From Thraustochytrium sp. TN22 (Eukaryota; Sar; Bigyra; Thraustochytrida; Thraustochytriidae), in contig JABLUY010000226.1 of assembly GCA_013306675.1 (NCBI GenBank), positions 1 through 58,475 of the forward strand: a DNA stretch of 58,475 nt, read 5' to 3'. Made by a program: the position numbers and the translations under genes. The notes beneath the pieces were generated by a model. The model had not been told where the DNA came from, made no database searches, and saw nothing but the letters and a program-made list of their open reading frames with translations. Shown here piece by piece: positions 5,801 through 53,125 of the stretch (positions within the stretch are counted from its first letter, which is position 1; each line of letters opens with the position of its first letter).

Positions 5801-8800
5801 GGTGAGATGCTGGAAAGGGAAGCGGTCCCATCGGGAAGAACTCACGCACGATGGAGTTGCAGCGAAGTTGATGCTGGCGGTCTTGAACCATGAAGATGCC
5901 GGGCTTCTCTTCACCGAGCAATCTCGCATCATTTGCGCGATTGTGGCGCGTGTAGCGATCAAGCAGGACCATGTCGGCACGCGCCGGTCCCACGACGTAA
6001 TTGCCGAGCGCCTCATTCGCGATGCGGTTCACGCGCTCGCAGGAGTTCGTGCCTCGAGCGGTGAAGAAGCCTTTCCCATCAGCAAAGGCAGTGTGCAGCT
6101 GCACTCCAGGTGGGTCGCTGAGGCAGCCGCTGTGCACGTGTGCCATCATCGTGCGGAGGAAGGTCTCGAAGGTCTGGTTTACGCCACCGAGCCTTTCCTT
6201 GAACAACTTGACACTGCTCCTGTGGCGCTCGCTTGGGACCTCACTCAGGACCTGTTGCAGATCAGCAGGTATGTCGAGACCGGGTTGCTCCGGGGCAGCA
6301 CCGCTAAGGGGCGCTGTTGTCGTTGCTTCGCAGCAGCGGGCCACCACAGCCAAGCTATTCTGAGCGTGGGCCGCGTTGTCGCTCGCCACAAAGGTCCGAA
6401 GGACTGCTGCAATACGACTTGCCAGCACCTCCCGGGCTGGGATGACTCGAGGGATGCTCTCCCGCATCTGCCGGCTCATCTCGGCCGCCTGACCGCTGGG
6501 CAGCATGCTGTTCAGCAAGTCCTTGTCCGGAATAAAAAGCGCACTGGACATCGCCCGCATGAAAAGACGGCGCAATGGGTGCGAGACCTCCACATTCATG
6601 AAGCGCTCCCAGCGCTGCATCCAGTGAAAAGCATCCAGGCAGACGGGGACGCCGGGCCAGATGGCCTGGAAAGCTGATCGGTCCGTGCAGCAGCGGTCAG
6701 TGTAGACGACCTCGGGGCGGTAGTTCGGGTCCAGCGCTTGGCGCATTCGCTGGAAGGCCTGCACGCCGCGGTGCATCTCGCCGCCGGCGTGCTCACCATC
6801 GCGCAGGCCGAGGTAAAAGACGACCTCGTTGTGCTCGTTGGTGATGAGAAGCATTGCACGGAATGGCGATACGTACGTCGTCTTCTTGTCGTCGTTTGGA
6901 ATTGGGACCTGGACTCTGGCAGCCAGTCGAAAAGTGCAATCTACCCGGACAACCCGCGCTGACTTGCTCACCAGCTCGCGAAGTAGAGGGCGAGCCTGCT
7001 CGCGCCGCAGCTTGAGGCAGACCTGGTCAACGAAGACTCGGCTGAACGTCATGCCGTTGTAGCCTTTCAGGTCGCTGTAACCTCCAAAGTCTGGGAGTGT
7101 GCTCGCGTCGTCGCCTGTGCTCGCGTCGTCGCCTTCTCCCGCATGCGCGCCCGGTCCCGGCTGCGATGCGTCTTGCTGCTGCTGCTCCTGGGCACGAATT
7201 GCGTCGTTGTGGGCCCTGCGATCTTGTCCTCGCTTCACGAGTTGCCTCACCTGCGCAACCGTCTTGTTGCGGGCCCGGTGTTTCCAGTATATTCTCATGT
7301 TATCGCGCGCGTTCCGCATGTTGGTCTGGTAGTGAGTTTTACGGGGCTGCTGCTGCTGTTCTTTCCCGGCGTGCGCCTTCACGAGCGAGCTGACGTTCGC
7401 CCTTGCCCAGCGCACGTCCACCCTATCGATGAACTCATCGGTCCATTGCTCAACCACTTCGTGGACACGGATGGGTCGCTGCGTGCGGCTTCCATCTGCC
7501 TGCGTCTCCCACATCATTACGCCGCACAGCTTCGCGCAAGTAGAATTGCGGAATGATTTGAGATCATTCGCGTGCCTACTCGACAAAGCAGCTTGTGGTT
7601 CAAGCGCAAGCAGCGTCTCCGCCTCTTGCTCTTCGCGCAGCTCGTATGAGGACACTTGCATGATCCGCGGGTCGCGACTCCGTGCTCTCTCTGCTTCGGC
7701 AGCAAAGAGACCGGGGACAGTTGCACGGCTTCTTTCCAGCGCGGCGGGAGCAGCAGACGCTGCCGTCGACGACCTTCCACGAGCCCACCGCAGGATGTAC
7801 CTGAGCTGCAGATCCTCGAAGTGTTGGACGTGCCTGCCCAACAGGGCGTCGATCGCAAGCTGGCCCTGCACGAGCCAGAGCTTGGTGATGTGATGGGCGA
7901 GGGGGCGCTCAATCGTCAGACGCTTGAAGACGAGGATAGAAAAGCGAAGTCGAGTTTCCTCCGGACATGCCTTCATAAAATCATCCGTGTGGCTGCGAAT
8001 CTGAGAGCCGCAAGCGGGGCACTTGTGCGCGCGGCTCAAAAGCAGCCATGTTCGATCCTCTGCGATGACCTCGCGCACGTCATGAATGGGTACCCACGAG
8101 GAGGTGCTTGAGTCAAGCGCGAACGTCGCTCTGCAATTACTGTTGCCGCACCGCATCTGAGTGCCCCTCATCTCAGGGAAGCACTTTTGCGGCCACCACA
8201 AACCGACAGCGCGAGTCATGAACTCCTCAGGACTCGGTCGATTCGCTGTCCTTGGCGGCCAGAAGAGCCACGCACGATCGTTGCTCGAGTCGAATCGCTT
8301 GTGCGCCTCCTCAGCGCTCATGCTCTCCATCTTCTGCTTGCACTGCTCGATGAAGTCGATCTCAGGGTCGCGAATGCGCTTTCTCCGCCGGTCGCTGGTC
8401 GCACCATCGTTCGCCTCGCCTTCCTCGCTCTCGTCGTCGTCGTCCTCGGCGTCGGCAGGGTCGCCGCCATCGACCGCGGCGGTGTCGCCAGTCGCCTCAG
8501 CCTCCTGCGCTGCCTCTGCAGCAGGGGCACGGTCGCCGCCTGCAGCGGATGGATCGAGAGCATCGCCACCCGCCCCCGCCCCGGCCATGATGTCGTCTTG
8601 CTGCGTTGGCCACGACAGGGAGCTTGCTCTTCTCGCGCCTCGGCGAGCCAAGCCAGGGATCCTAACGGCGGGAGACAGGCCGCCGGTCGCCTCATAGTGG
8701 CGCCACCGGTCGTCCATAAGCGATACCTCCACCTCATGGCATCTTCCAACACCGGACTCAGGCATCCCTGGCTCAACAGGGAGGGCTGCGCGAGCTCCAG

Positions 8801-14136: not shown

Positions 14137-14207
<71 letters not shown>
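14137..14207. repeat. (CTG)n, reading (CAG)n in the MTHFR 3' UTR
   Basis: About 23 uninterrupted CTG units. On the minus strand they read CAG/GCA and begin about 12 nt after the final stop codon of the MTHFR reading frame, so they would sit in that gene's 3' untranslated region. Confidence 0.95.
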
Positions 14208-14218: not shown

Positions 14219-16436
14219 CTAGTGCTGCTCGTGCCCTTGCATCGCGGCCAGAGCGGACCGCGCGCGCAGAAGCTCGCGCTGTAGATGCGCGTTCTCGCGC
14301 TCGAGTGCGTCAACCCGCACACGCAGGTCCTTAGCGGACATGTCGTCCAAAATAACGGCGCGAAAGACCTGAAAGATGTCACTCTCCTCGTCAACGTAGT
14401 CGTTGTCAACGATGTTGACGAGAAACCACGTATCGTGGATGGTGCGTAGGACGCGCGCCGCCTGCGCGTCCTCGTCGGTCTGGTCGTCGCCTGCGCGCGG
14501 CGCATACAGGGAGGCCCATTGCGAAAGCCAGAGTTCAAAGGCCTCCGCCTTCCACACGCGGAAGCTCTCTGTGTCCACGACTGTGGGCTAAATGATCTCA
14601 CGGCCGGGGAAAACGCCCCAGGTCACGGCGTTGACGCGGCCCGGCCGCGCGGCCTGCGCCTCCTGCACGAGCTCGTCCGCGAAGGAGACGCGGCGCTGCG
14701 TGCTTGCCGCGTCGGCGGCGCGCGGCGACGTCGGACCCTGCACGTCCAGGAACTCGTCGCCGGCTACGTTCACGGCGTGGTACGAGAGGCGGCCCGGCGG
14801 CAGCGCGTCAATGCAGCCGCGCAGCTTGAACCACAGCTCCGGCGAGCAGAAGAACTCCACGTAGGCCTTTTGGAAGCACACGCCGCCGTCGCCGCCCCAG
14901 CCGTAGCGCGCGTCCGAGGAGGCCACGCCATTCACCTTGGGCTGGCTGTTGATGGTCAGGAATCCGTTCTGGTTGATCCAGCAAAGGTCCTCGGAGATCG
15001 TCTCGGTCTCGGCCGCCAGCTGCTGGTCGCACCACGGCAGGTGGCGCAACTCGCCGCGCATGTAGCGCACGAAAACGGCCGAGACGTCGGCCGCCGACTG
15101 CGGCGCACCCCAGAGCTGTCGCAAGTCCAGGTCCGAGCGCTCCTTCTCTGCCAGGTAGTAGTCGCCCAGCTCAAAGGTGGCGGCGCTGCGCGCATCGCCC
15201 CACCGCCCGTTCGGGAACTCTGACCACGCCGAGGTGCGCGAGAGGTAGCTCGAGTGCCGGTACGCCCAAAAGATCGGGCGCACCTCCTCTTGTTCGCGCG
15301 CCAGCCCGCGCCATGGCAGCTGACGGCCCTGCGCGTGCGATGGGTCGCGCAGCTGCAGCCGCTGCAAGATCTTGGCCACGGCGCTCGCCAGATTCAGCGT
15401 GAAAAAGTGCACGGCGTGCACGTCACGCCGCAGCAGGGCGCGGATCTGCTCTACGCCCACATCCACGCCGTACTCTTGCACGCGCTCGTCGTCGTCCTTG
15501 ATCTCGTTCAGCTTCGCCTCGATGTGCCGCGGCACCTGCGGCCGCGCCCACGCCTTGAACCGCTGGAACGACGAGTAGTTCTGGATCGGCGCGTACCCCG
15601 GGATGATGGGCACGCTGATGCCGGCCTCCATGCACCGCTCGCGGAACCTGAAGAAGACCTCCGTGTCGTAGAAGAACTGCGTGATCACAAAGTCCGCGCC
15701 CGCGTCCACCTTGTCTTTGAGGCGCACCAGGTCCTCCTTGCGCGCCTGGTCGCTCGGGGGCAGGTAGGGCGAGTTCCAGCTGCTCGTGTGCACCTCAGGG
15801 TACCCAGCCACGCCCACGCAAAAGTAATCGCCGTGTTCGGCGCGGATCAGGTGCACCAGTTCCACGGCGTTGCGGAAGCCGTTCTGCACGGCGCGCCAGC
15901 CCGCCTGTTGTGCCTGTTGTGCCTGCTGCTGCTGCTGCTGCTGCTGCTGTGCCTGCGCCCCGGTCGCCGTGCCGCTCCCGGTGCCAGGCCCGCTGGACGA
16001 TTGGTGCGCAAGGTGGGCCGCATCACCGCGCAGCGCCAGAATGTTGCGCAGGCCTGCCGCGCGCGCCGCTTTGAGCGTGCGCAGCAGGTCCTCCCGCGGC
16101 AGGTGGCACGTCAGATGCAGCAAGACCACGATGCCGAGCTGCTTTTGCACGATCGACCCGATCCGCAGCCACACCGATTCGTCCTTGAAGGCCGACCGCC
16201 ACGTCAGCGAGATGAAGGTCGGTTGCAGCGCCTCGCCCATCTCCGCGATGCGCTGCACGAGCTTGTCTGCATCCTCGATCGCCTGCGGCGGACCTTTTTC
16301 CGTCAGTCTCGGCGCGACCCAGCGCAAGTTTGCTTCAGCTCTCGCCGGCACGTACCTTGGGCGCGAAAAACTCGAACGAGACGCACGTCTCGCCGCTCTT
16401 GGCCTTGTCGGCGAGCAGCTGGCTGATCTTGGGCAT
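14219..16436 (-). CDS. Methylenetetrahydrofolate reductase with an internal in-frame TAG
   Basis: Reduces 5,10-methylene-THF to 5-methyl-THF for methionine synthesis. Two exons. Exon 1 is 16356-16436 (27 codons, ending SFEFFAPK). A 73-nt intron follows (GTACGT, branch CTGAC, CAG). Exon 2 starts at 16282 (AIEDADKLVQR). The splice keeps the spacing seen in human MTHFR. The catalytic barrel carries the ALRGD flavin loop, then a roughly 45-residue Gln/Gly/Ser insert. The regulatory domain shows RPIFWA, FPNGRWG, LTINSQP and FPGREII. Directly after FPGREII the frame has TAG (14588-14590), where relatives have Gln in EIIQPTVVD. The following 122 codons continue perfectly as the MTHFR C-terminus (PTVVD, SFRVWKAEAFELW, IHDTWFLVNIVDND) to a second TAG at 14219. 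So the gene is a nonsense allele, is read through or is a base-call error. With the TAG decoded it would be 714 residues. Confidence 0.93.
14588..14590 (-). other. In-frame TAG replacing a conserved Gln codon in MTHFR
   Basis: On the minus strand the codons read GAG ATC ATT TAG CCC ACA GTC GTG GAC. Eukaryotic MTHFR has EIIQPTVVD here, so TAG sits where CAG or CAA is expected (one C-to-T change from CAG). No other disruption follows until the C-terminus. Confidence 0.9.
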
Positions 16437-29966: not shown

Positions 29967-31095
29967 TCAGATTTCAGGATCTAGCACAGAGTGCCTGGAG
30001 TGGCGCACACGAATGCTGCCGGAGCGCGTGATGCGTGTCGCTGCGACCGTGGCCGGGCGCGAAGGGCTGCTCAGCTCGCTACGCAAGAGTGGCTCCTGGC
30101 TGCTGCCCTCATGCACACGATCCGAAAGGTGCTCCAGATTGGCGCTGCCCTCCGCGAGGCTGTCGGCCTCGCCCGGCACACCGGTTTCCGGGTCGGCGTG
30201 GAAACCGTCGACAGGCCCGGCCAGCTCGTCCTCCGGGCCATCAACCTCGTCTTGCTCGACCTCGTCCTCATCCTCTTCGGGCCTGTAGTCAGGCTGGCCG
30301 TAGAGACGCGGACCATAGCGCAAGACCACAATGGACAGCAGCGCGCCAAAAATGGCCGGAAAGTACATACCGCCGCCCGCGGCAACGCCCGTGGCGGCCG
30401 AGATCCACACGCTGGCCGCCGTCGTGAGTCCACGAACGGAGTGCCGGCCCTCCTCGTTCTGGCCCTTCCACACGATGCCAGACCCGAGGAAACCAACGCC
30501 GCTGCGGTTCGTCCGCGCGCGACCTCGTCAATCAGCGACAGCTAATTTCTCCCAGCGCAGCGCGCGCACGAGAAACATCAACCTACCTCGGAATGGCAGC
30601 GCTCACGCGCGAGGCGTCCCAGTGGTTCCACCCATTCGTAAACGCCCAGGTGCTGCAGATCGTAAAGAGACAGGCGCCGAGCGACGCAAGGCTCATCGTG
30701 CGGATGCCGGCCGGCCGATCTGCCGAACGGCGCTCGAACCCGATGAGCGCACCCGCAAAGACCGCCACCGCCATGCGGCGCCCCAGGTCAGCCTCCATGA
30801 GCGTCATGCCGGCCAGGAACCACCGGCGCAGGAGGCGGTCCGTGTCTGCAATGTACCCCGGGTTGGCCCACTGCGCCTTGCCCGTCTCCTCGTTGTAGTG
30901 CGGGTGCGCCAAGGTGTAGAACATGGCGTCGTCTAGCGACGCGCCGCACCCGCGCTCGCCATCCACGATCGCGCGACATAGCGGGTTCGCCAGCACGGCG
31001 AGCACCACTGTGAGCACCACCGCGAAGACCACCGCGCGGTCGAAGAGGGCGTCCTTACCCCATCTGTCGCCGCCCTTGGGGTTCGCGCTTGCCAT
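29967..31095 (-). CDS. MgtC/SapB-family membrane protein
   Basis: Two exons: 30587-31095 and 29967-30501, with an 85-nt intron (GTAGGT, TTGAC branch, CAG). The splice recreates the family core ASRVSAAIPSGVGFLGSGIVWKG, which neither exon holds alone. The 347-residue product has several membrane segments and the MgtC motifs FAGALIGFERRSADRPAGIRTMSLASLGACLFT and RGLTTAASVWISAATGVAAGGG. Bacterial MgtC acts in magnesium limitation and intracellular survival; the role of eukaryotic homologues is not established. An insert of about 65 residues (DDAMFYTLAHPHYNEETG...) separates the first segment from the core, and the C-terminal 100 residues are acidic and hydrophilic (PEEDEDEVEQDEVDGPEDE). The family is largely bacterial, so ancient transfer is possible, but the intron shows the gene is settled in this genome. 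Stop is TGA. Confidence 0.85.
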
Positions 31096-31187
31096 GCCTG
31101 TGAGCCCGCGCCGCTCGAGCCCTGTCGCCCACGTCTACGCGTTCGAGCCCGCGAGCGCGCCGACCTCGTGGTGGCCGCCGGGCTCCC

Positions 31188-50223: not shown

Positions 50224-50778
50224 CTATGCAACAGGCAGGCAGGCGAACGCGAGTGCAGGGAGCAGGAGGCCGGCGCTGAGCGCGGCTCCGGAGCCGCCGA
50301 GGGAACCGGTGGGCGCAGTGGTGGTCTCGTTGCTGCCGCCGGAGGGCGTCGGGCTCGATGTCTCGCTGGAGCCAGACGTGGTTGGCTCGTACGTGTAAGT
50401 GGCGCACTCCGGGCTCAACGTGTCGATGACGATTTGCGCGTCCTCGGCGCCGAGCCATTCAATCAGGTCCGCATCTACCTCCTCGGGGCAGTAGCAGTAC
50501 TCGCAGACGAGCAGGTCCATGGCGAGCTCGTTCTCAAAGATCACGTAGTACTCTTCCAGGGTAATGTTTTCCCCGTCCTGGAAAAGTGCCCTGCACTCGG
50601 AGTTCTTCGCGCAGGCAATACCAGCCTGGAGGCAGACCGTGTCCCACGCCGCATCGCACTCGTCCGAGACGAGCTCGCGTGGCAGCAGTCGCACGCCCTC
50701 TGACTGTGAGTCCCTCGCGGATGTCTGCAGCACCGCCGCGGCGAACGCGACGGCCATCGCTACGAGACCCTCCCTCAT
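50224..50778 (-). CDS. Secreted 8-cysteine protein, probable GPI anchor (paralogue A)
   Basis: A 184-residue precursor: signal peptide (1-22), a Cys-rich domain at about 34-130, a Ser/Thr/Gly/Pro-rich stalk (TTSGSSETSSPTPSGG) and a hydrophobic C-terminus (LSAGLLLPALAFACLPVA) that resembles a GPI-attachment signal. The domain has eight Cys with the spacing C-x7-C-x6-C-x5-C-x29-C-x2-C-x-C-x27-C, identical to the neighbouring gene. I do not recognise the domain. The pattern suggests a disulfide-bonded surface protein. Stop is TAG, directly after the hydrophobic tail. Confidence 0.78.
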   Translation of the reverse strand: MREGLVAMAVAFAAAVLQTSARDSQSEGVRLLPRELVSDECDAAWDTVCLQAGIACAKNSECRALFQDGENITLEEYYVIFENELAMDLLVCEYCYCPEEVDADLIEWLGAEDAQIVIDTLSPECATYTYEPTTSGSSETSSPTPSGGSNETTTAPTGSLGGSGAALSAGLLLPALAFACLPVA

Positions 50779-51366
50779 TTGCTGCGTTTTGACACGGTGG
50801 CCGCGGCGCGTTCACTCTTTGTTGCCAATGCAAGTGTCGCACGATGCGCTCGTAATGAAATGCGCAACCTCGAGGCCCGAACTGCACATAACGTTACTGC
50901 ACCTGTGCGCGCTCCTGATGAGCATTGCAGCCTGAGCAGCCTGCTCGCTCCGACCCGCATCGCTCGCTGCGGTGATGGACCTCCCTACCGCCGGGCCAGC
51001 CGGGCCAGCCGGGCCAGCCGGGCGCAGCCGCCCGGGCCAGCCCGGCTGGTCGGCAGTTCCTACCCACCCACTCACACTGTGCACCGAGCACAGGCTGGCA
51101 TGCCGTCGCAAGATTCCGGATGGTCATGAACCGTCCGGGGCCCCGCGGCGCTGCCAGCCGCTGCCAACCGCTGCCAGCCGGCTGCCAGCCGCTGCAGTGG
51201 GACGAGGACTGCGGCGGAGCGCGCTCCGCCCGCACACAAGAGGCGCTCAAGAGCTCGCGGAAACTCGGCGAGGCTCTAGCTAGCTAGCCTAGGCCTAGCC
51301 CGAGAGACATGGAATCATCACAACACGTATTTTTGTCGTTACCTGGTACGGGTACCGGCAAGCAAG
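50779..51366. other. Spacer between the tandem 8-cysteine genes
   Basis: Contains a 9-bp GGGCCAGCC array at about 50993-51045 and repeated CTGCCAGCCG units near 51150-51190; a TCTAGCTAGCTAG motif is at 51275. Otherwise promoter of paralogue A and 3' end of paralogue B. Confidence 0.5.
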
Positions 51367-51891
51367 CTAATACAGAAGGTTGGCAATCCCGAGCGCGGTG
51401 ACGGCGGCAGCAAACGAGCTTGCATGGAGTCCTGAGGCCGAGCCGCCGAGGTCAGACCCAGACCCCGGGCCTGAGTCGTAGTAGTAGTTGGAGTAGTCGC
51501 CGCCCTCAACAGTTGGGGCGGTGGTGATGCTCCATCCGGCGCAATATGGGGTGAGGGCGTCACTGACGGTCTTGGCGTCTGTCTCACCGAGCCAGCCGAC
51601 GAGGTCCTCGTCCACCTCCGAAGGGCACGTGCAGTACAGGCAAGACATGGCCAAGACCGCCAGTTCGTTGGCGAAAATGGCTTCGTAGTCCTCAAGAGTT
51701 AGCTCCTCGCCGTATTGCATGAGGGCGTTGCAGGAGGGCACGATGGCGCATGTAGCCATAGGCACCTCGCACTTGGTCTGCCATTCGGCCTCGCACGCTG
51801 CCGAGACGAGGTTGCGCCCAAAGATGTCCTTGCCCTCGACCGCGGCAAGGCCGGCCAGCATCGCCAGAAGCGCAGCCTTGGCGCCGTGCAT
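51367..51891 (-). CDS. Secreted 8-cysteine protein, probable GPI anchor (paralogue B)
   Basis: A 174-residue precursor paralogous to the gene 0.6 kb away on the same strand. Start chosen at the ATG at 51891 (MHGAKAALLAMLAG); the frame upstream lacks an ATG. Signal peptide about 1-20, Cys-rich domain about 27-127, a Gly/Ser/Tyr-rich stalk (GGDYSNYYYDSGPGSGS) and a hydrophobic tail (FAAAVTALGIANLLY) for probable GPI attachment. All eight Cys keep exactly the spacing of paralogue A, and conserved residues include RxLVS, TLExYxxIFxNELA, YCxCPxEVDxDLxxWLG and DAxxVxDxLxPxC. The duplication is old: stalks and signal peptides are not alike. Stop is TAG. Confidence 0.78.
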   Translation of the reverse strand: MHGAKAALLAMLAGLAAVEGKDIFGRNLVSAACEAEWQTKCEVPMATCAIVPSCNALMQYGEELTLEDYEAIFANELAVLAMSCLYCTCPSEVDEDLVGWLGETDAKTVSDALTPYCAGWSITTAPTVEGGDYSNYYYDSGPGSGSDLGGSASGLHASSFAAAVTALGIANLLY

Positions 51892-53125
51892 CGTCTGGAT
51901 AGCTGTCACGAACAAATCTCAGAAGGAGCTCGGGTTGCGGGTCTGCCGCCCGCGTGACACGGAATGCCATCGCTGAGCGCATGTCAGCCCTCTCTCGCGC
52001 GTTTTTAAAGCTTGCAGCCTGTGCGCGCGGGACACGATGCGCGAACGCACCTGAAGGCAGAAGCAAGACACGGCCGGACCCGGCCGGTCGCTCGCTCTTC
52101 AAGGCTGAGAGCGATGCGAGCCATGTGTCCCGTCCCCACACAGGTCCCTGTCGTGCGTTCCCCGCCTCTGTCGGGCCCTCTCGCCCGCTCCGACCGGCCG
52201 TCGCCACAGCTCCCACCTGCGCTGCGCTGGCCGGCTGCAGCGGCGCAGCCTGCTCTCAGGCTGGCAGTGCACGTCGCCGGACGTCCGACTCGGAGTCGTC
52301 ACGGCAAAAGGCCTGGCAGTGCACCAATGACCTGAGAGCTGAGCGTGCATTTTTCTTGGCCGCGCGGCGGCGGCAGCGGATGCGTTGCATCCATGCTCTA
52401 TCAGGTGCAGGCAGGCACCTCCCCCCTCAGAAAATCGCGACGTCGCGCGTCCGGGTTGCCGCCGCCGCCCGTCGCGCCGGTCGCGCGCCGTAGCAGCCTC
52501 GCGCCGCGACCTGCGGGTCCCTGCGGCGCCCTGGGGCTCTCTGCCAGAGCAGATCCCCCGCTCGGACGGCCCCGGACGATGCCCGCCCGCGTGCACTCTG
52601 GAAGTGCGCGGCGAGCAAAGCTTTTCCCAACGGCGGCGAACAAACCTGGGAGTCAGAGGCTACGTACGAAGCCTCTTCTGCTCCGACCTGGCCTTGAACG
52701 GACTCCGACCTGGCCTGGAATGGGCGCGCGCCGCCGCCTTCTGCCGACTGCGCGGTGCAGCGCAAACATGCATGTGTGCCGTGTACAGAGATGGGTTCCA
52801 TCGAAGTAGGAAGGAACAAGCTCGCTGCCAAGCATGGGTCATCAAACAGTAGTTTCTGTCAATCTGAGTCAGGAGAATTGACTTGCCCTGGTTGGCTTGG
52901 CGCGGGCTGGCGCGGGCTGGCGCGGGCTGGCGCGGGCTGGCGCGGCCATAGCCTCGAGTTCTGGCTTTCACGAACCTTGTGCACACTGTGCTTGACGCTC
53001 ACTCATGGTCACAGGCAGGCTGTCTCTGTCAGCCAGAGAGAATGCTTGTTCGCGGCTTGCTCGGCCTTGCTCGGCCTTGCTCGGCCTTGCTCGAGGATCG
53101 CAGTGCTGCCAGTGCAGTCACGGTG
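51892..53125. other. Intergenic region with short tandem arrays
   Basis: Holds the upstream part of paralogue B and the 3' side of GLE1. An 11-bp GGCGCGGGCTG-type array lies at about 52898-52945, and another 11-bp array (CTCGGCCTTG) at about 53059-53092. TGCCAGTGCAGTCA at about 53105 also occurs near 29495. No convincing gene. Confidence 0.5.
52898..52945. repeat. 11-bp tandem repeat (GGCGCGGGCTG)n
   Basis: About four perfect copies of the unit in intergenic DNA. Confidence 0.9.

Follow-up and report, generated by a model that had tools for sequence, protein, structure and literature searches.

An in-frame TAG at a conserved glutamine codon in the SAM-binding domain of one of three MTHFR genes of Thraustochytrium sp. 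TN22

One of the three MTHFR genes of Thraustochytrium sp. TN22 contains an in-frame TAG (codon 592) at a position where the family has a conserved glutamine, and the 122 open codons downstream of this TAG encode the remainder of the SAM-binding regulatory domain. The gene is located in the window, i.e. the whole stretch of 58,475 nucleotides that was analysed (contig C140). A recent nonsense change in this one paralogue is the leading explanation, to which about half of our confidence is given, and such a change would probably be strain-specific or allelic. Among the alternatives, a base error ranks next and a leaky stop codon third.

Gene model and position of the TAG codon

The minus-strand frame of the MTHFR gene reads EII-TAG-PTVVD, the TAG being flanked by AVTWGVFPGREII and PTVVDTESFRVWKAEAF (Table 1). 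The catalytic domain (PF02219) was matched in two stretches (E 6e-79). The regulatory domain (PF21895, MTHFR_C) is not complete in one frame, as both of its parts are present with the TAG between them, namely profile positions 2-207 at the 5' side and positions 229-294 at the 3' side (E 1.7e-15). In a profile search of the whole genome, the PF21895 match ran across the TAG in register (reported as '1 TAG'), which indicates that the tail is not a chance match. The original prediction, made from the letters of the window, had taken the 122 codons after the TAG for the C-terminus of MTHFR, and both this profile match and the alignment with a human chain given below bear it out. Its description of the gene as otherwise intact holds as well, provided that a 73-nt intron is allowed, the splice sites of which were deduced. 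Downstream of the regulatory domain, the tail ends in a lineage-specific C-terminal extension with many charged residues and a putative leucine-heptad pattern. CTG/CAG repeats occur at approximately 14145-14207, just past the last stop codon of the gene, and at 15910-15960, where they correspond to the polyQ insert in the catalytic domain.

Table 1. Features of the MTHFR gene on contig C140, with positions in the window
Feature	Position	Strand	Description and basis
MTHFR exon 1	16356..16436	-	27 codons, MPKISQLL...FEFFAPK; based on the frame and on the match with the beginning of the catalytic domain; putative ATG at 16436
MTHFR intron, 73 nt	16283..16355	-	GTACGT donor, CTGAC branch-like site and GCAG acceptor; deduced from sequence signals and frame
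MTHFR exon 2, part 5' of the TAG	14591..16282	-	Remainder of the catalytic domain (with polyQ insert), linker, and the larger part of the SAM-binding regulatory domain; PF02219, PF21895 (2-207) and PDB matches
In-frame TAG, position of human Gln571	14588..14590	-	Gln in 22/22 relatives and in the aligned PDB chains
Codon equivalent to human Thr573 (SAM site 1)	14582..14584	-	Kept 3' of the TAG; alignments; role from the available parts of PMC5995969 and PMC11018872
Codon equivalent to human Trp583 (stacking in the SAM pocket)	14552..14554	-	Kept 3' of the TAG; alignments; role from the available part of PMC11018872
Open tail of 122 codons	14222..14587	-	End of the regulatory domain, followed by the lineage-specific C-terminal extension; PF21895 (229-294); 53% identical to C236
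Terminal TAG of the downstream frame	14219..14221	-	Reading frame

Residue at the TAG position and its SAM-pocket context

In human MTHFR (chain 8qa4, E 2.5e-11), the match of the tail starts at residue 572. The numbering of this chain near the site (Thr560 in AVTWG, Ile570, Pro572, and Thr573) places the TAG at human Gln571. Indeed, the human chains have exactly one residue between II and PTVVD, and this residue is Q, in agreement with the EIIQPTVVD that the original prediction had given for human MTHFR. Four PDB sequences align without gaps through QPT when the TAG is read as Q. In addition, all 22 aligned relatives, i.e. 21 bacterial loci and the paralogue on contig C236, have Gln at this position, so that the presence of the TAG at a conserved glutamine is confirmed; in the paralogue, the codon is CAG.

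The 13 residues of the SAM pocket that are named in the available parts of the human structure papers (Pro348, Trp349, Ala368, Phe384, Asn386, Arg388, Trp389, Glu463, Thr464, Gln485, Thr560, Thr573, and Trp583) are all kept in the C140 gene, 11 of them before the TAG and two after it. According to the accessible text of PMC5995969, Thr573 belongs to the SAM site of human MTHFR and strand beta16 lies at the dimer interface too, and that of PMC11018872 describes that variants of the SAM pocket, including those of Thr573 and Trp583, abolished inhibition by SAM. By analogy with what these sources report for the human enzyme, on which the predicted effect of a truncation is based, the cut made by the TAG would fall within the SAM-sensing turn, and a stop at residue 571 would cost Thr573 as well as strands beta16, beta17, and beta18.

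Conservation of the tail and age of the TAG

As a protein sequence, the tail is not clearly decayed. Near-invariant residues, defined as the same residue in at least 21 of the 22 relatives, are kept at 62 of 70 positions before the TAG and at 18 of 20 after it, and identity to the 21 bacterial domains averages 0.49 before and 0.47 after the TAG (0.49 and 0.53, respectively, for the corresponding parts of C236). Decay of the kind seen in pseudogenes was not found in the C140 gene, which has one in-frame stop in the 714 codons before the terminal TAG and is conserved similarly on both sides of this in-frame stop. Such conservation is expected equally if the tail is still translated. In a neutral simulation that assumed 0.1 indel per substitution, the tail was still open in 10% of the runs at 5% divergence and in 1% at 10% divergence; as the tail rarely stays open under neutrality, a true stop at this position would be young. 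The absence of protein-level decay therefore means that the TAG either arose recently, is false, or undergoes readthrough, three possibilities that the present data do not separate.

The third codon positions behave differently in the two genes, GC3 falling from 0.90 before to 0.78 after the TAG in C140 but not in C236 (0.89 and 0.88 before and after the TAG position, respectively). The best change point of GC3 in C140 was codon 583, nine codons 5' of the TAG, and exceeded the 99th percentile of 500 permutations. If this fall reflects relaxed selection, it would indicate an older stop, which is contradicted by the conserved protein sequence. However, the GC3 of other long open reading frames (ORFs) also varies at the 3' end, with a mean change of -0.027 (sd 0.050) and one value of -0.12 or lower among 20 long ORFs, a set that includes the C140 gene up to the TAG and possibly some false ORFs.

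MTHFR paralogues in the genome

A profile search of the genome with PF02219 retrieved three MTHFR genes, located on contigs C140, C236, and C218. The C236 gene is of full length and has an open frame. The C218 gene (locus 6836-7762) encodes the catalytic domain only, in a frame of 360 codons, and had the best PF02219 score of the three; in the whole-genome search with PF21895, no match was obtained in it. The tail of C140 matched only one other place in the assembly, namely C236 (53% identical), indicating that no second allele is present in the assembly; C236 is a paralogue and not an allele. With a full-length C236 and a catalytic-only C218, loss of the C140 copy could be borne. A search for relatives in viral contigs yielded 57 pattern matches, with no homologue among them.

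Genetic code and decoding machinery

Reassignment of UAG to Gln, complete or partial, would explain a TAG at an invariant glutamine (22/22 relatives), and the S60T substitution in eRF1 described below may be counted in its favour. Stops within domain matches were counted genome-wide for protein kinases (0/135), ABC transporters (0/19), mitochondrial carriers (2/148), and DEAD helicases (1/37), scoring the best candidates only (E cut-off of 1e-8, or 1e-6 for the carriers), so that a badly broken gene could escape and several stretches may come from one gene. Only three of these 339 stretches contained stops and all three were read as introns, leaving no exonic stop. A recurrence of TAG at conserved Gln positions in other genes, a check suggested by the original prediction, was not found in the 339 stretches of these four families. 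Based on splice signals and domain frame, the stops were rejected as recoded codons: the in-frame TAG on C36 reads as a 3' splice end, the in-frame TGA on C60 as sitting after a donor, and the three in-frame stops on C426 as falling in one intron-like stretch.

Furthermore, other genes of the window end in TAG after complete domains. The genes for an ALS-like TPP enzyme and a protein kinase have a TAG end downstream of their Pfam domains, with coding signal right up to the end. An EF-hand/DM10 ORF ends in TAG downstream of its domain too, although its last 60 codons score low (0.05) and this TAG might be intronic. The claim of six or more other genes in the window with a TAG end is thus verified in part, for three ORFs with Pfam support, the last of them less surely. 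Two further ORFs with a TAG end (50224-50811 and 51367-51918) had no Pfam match. An apparent TAG end of an MgtC-family ORF (30583-31134, minus strand) was rejected as a terminator, as splice signals and domain frame place it in an intron donor (AG|GTAGGT); the MgtC domain of this ORF seems to continue in ORF 29967-30527.

A codon-usage scan of 210 kb, 10 kb of which reads N, with a model trained on the same DNA, singled out the MTHFR TAG, as no other stop was flanked on either side by 60 codons that both scored above 0.2. Raising the threshold to 0.3 left no stop, not even the MTHFR TAG, between two coding flanks. Lower thresholds yielded two TAG codons at 0.15, five TAG at 0.1, six TAG and one TGA at 0.05, and ten TAG, one TGA, and no TAA at 0; the other low-threshold stops are taken as antisense frames or noise.

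As to the decoding machinery, the eRF1 gene was found on contig C203 (1480-2784) and matches eRF1 chains of the PDB (best E 2.2e-180). The best match of the eRF1 family search was rejected as eRF1, as it reads as Pelota. The C203 protein has TATNIKS instead of TASNIKS (S60T), and Ser70 and the YxCxxxF motif (YMCDNRF) are kept; this eRF1 seems near-canonical by its motifs. The available part of PMC4695839 gives KATNIKD for Tetrahymena eRF1, in which S60T occurs as part of a compound change, and reports that the TASNIKS and YCF motifs of Tetrahymena increased UAG readthrough when placed in human eRF1. TATNIKS was not found among the matches listed in a literature search, which does not show its absence. 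Among the titles and abstract openings listed in other literature searches, none dealt with this gene or with a recoding of UAG in thraustochytrids.

No tRNA with a CUA anticodon was found, in an insensitive screen that scored 63 of 330 candidates and whose pattern design fits 13 of 36 known nuclear tRNAs; this counts against a reassignment to the extent that so weak a screen can. The only tRNA-Gln of the screen is located on C363, a contig taken as mitochondrial. ARAGORN called Pyl(cta) loci on C17 and C26, which were rejected as suppressor tRNAs, being better explained as tRNA-Ser(GCT) genes whose intron lies at 37/38; such calls are a trap in screens for amber suppressors. On C375, two ARAGORN calls of tRNA-SeC(tca) with odd introns represent candidate selenocysteine tRNAs or a mis-call.

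The genetic code thus appears to be ordinary, and a reassignment of UAG to Gln is hardly credible. This agrees with the original prediction, which had considered a code change unlikely: the three stretches with stops out of 339 all read as introns and at least two Pfam-supported genes end in TAG with a good coding signal.

Explanations for the TAG codon

If the TAG is a recent nonsense change, the base would be real and the codon would act as a stop. Translation would normally terminate at 14588-14590, and the product would extend from the catalytic barrel through the linker into the beginning of the regulatory domain. It would be without the end of the beta15-beta16 turn, which carries Thr573, without strands beta16 to beta18, and without Trp583. 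Feedback by SAM would be lost, and the regulatory domain and the dimer would be destabilised, resulting in a SAM-blind MTHFR, in an unstable or degraded one, or in both. As the TAG cuts the SAM sensor and spares the catalyst, an unregulated enzyme is possible instead of a dead one. The cell could bear the truncation because the full-length C236 and the catalytic-only C218 remain.

A consensus base error, or a minority allele picked by the assembler, would mean that the usual gene has a sense codon. In favour of this, the gene is intact apart from a single base, and the conservation of the tail resembles that of a translated sequence. Against it, none of the 339 other domain stretches has an exonic stop. 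These clean domain frames indicate that the assembly is not grossly error-prone, although they bound the rate of substitution errors only loosely, and an error is regarded as unlikely, albeit the strongest of the alternatives. Alternatively, the UAG may be leaky, most ribosomes stopping and some inserting an amino acid to produce the full, SAM-regulated enzyme; insertion of Gln by a near-cognate tRNA-Gln would bring back the family residue. The open and conserved tail, in which Thr573 and Trp583 are kept, is consistent with this, as are the TATNIKS motif of eRF1 and the C directly 3' of the TAG, the base after a stop codon being one that affects leakiness. However, the context UAG CCC ACA is not of the readthrough-promoting CARYYA type, and an unusual RNA fold was not found at or after the TAG when compared with shuffled sequences (z of -1.44 for the 140 nt that follow the codon and of -0.31 for its surroundings), the same stretch of the stop-free C236 folding more strongly (z of -2.25). 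Moreover, the 210-kb codon-usage scan revealed no second stop with strong coding on both sides. A leaky stop is therefore considered doubtful and ranks below a base error. Still less probable is its use at an allosteric hinge, by which one mRNA would give mostly SAM-blind MTHFR and, by Gln insertion, some SAM-regulated enzyme, the level of readthrough setting how far methyl flow escapes from feedback.

Removal of the TAG at the RNA level, by a mini-intron or by editing, is very improbable. A 21-nt stretch, GTGAGATCATTTAGCCCACAG, has an intron-like start and end and its excision would be frame-neutral, but the conserved EIIQPT core would be lost with it, alignment of the flanks to human MTHFR shows no gap, and the deduced intron of the gene measures 73 nt. 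U-to-C editing of nuclear mRNA is not known in this group. The original prediction had offered a recent change, a base error, and readthrough or editing as options. This interpretation is partly supported by the ordinary code and the undecayed tail, and nothing indicative of programmed readthrough was seen.

A recent nonsense change remains the preferred explanation. If the base is real, the gene represents a natural MTHFR that ends in its SAM-sensing turn and would offer a test of the consequences of losing SAM feedback in a protist with a PUFA synthase. If the TAG is read through, a stop codon would gate allostery, and if it is an error, it would be a warning on inferring recoding from a single codon.

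Other observations on the genome

The PUFA synthase is encoded by an ORF of 3044 codons (PfaA family, 2539.7 bits with neighbours). Mitochondrial ORFs resembling cox1, cox2, and atp6, located on C318 and named from their sequence, contain no TTA in 916 codons (DNA of 38% GC), which presumably reflects the Thraustochytrium mitochondrial code (NCBI table 23). The PF21895 regulatory domain was retrieved in 21 bacterial loci, belonging to planctomycete, Marinimicrobia, acidobacterial, deltaproteobacterial/myxococcal, oligoflexal, and Saprospiraceae MAGs, and it was fused to the catalytic domain in all three of these loci that were tested. The SAM-binding regulatory domain of MTHFR is called eukaryote-only in the available part of PMC5995969, in contrast to these loci.

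Comparison with known systems

Programmed stop-codon readthrough shares with the C140 gene an open, conserved frame after the stop, whereas no readthrough motif or RNA structure was found in C140. Nuclear codes in which UAG encodes Gln (treated, for example, in PMC5304391) likewise have UAG at Gln sites, but the present case is a single one in a genome that still ends genes with TAG. Catalytic-only MTHFR, such as bacterial MetF and the C218 protein, performs catalysis without a SAM sensor, and the truncated C140 product would be like it, except that it would retain a partial, perhaps unstable, regulatory domain. Finally, C140 shares both domains and all 13 pocket residues with eukaryotic MTHFR that carries a SAM-binding domain (human 6fcx and 8qa4; 8uy1 and 8uy2, which we take to be the Chaetomium MTHFR of PMC11183114), and differs from it in having the TAG at Gln571, a catalytic domain with a polyQ insert, and a C-terminal tail that is longer.
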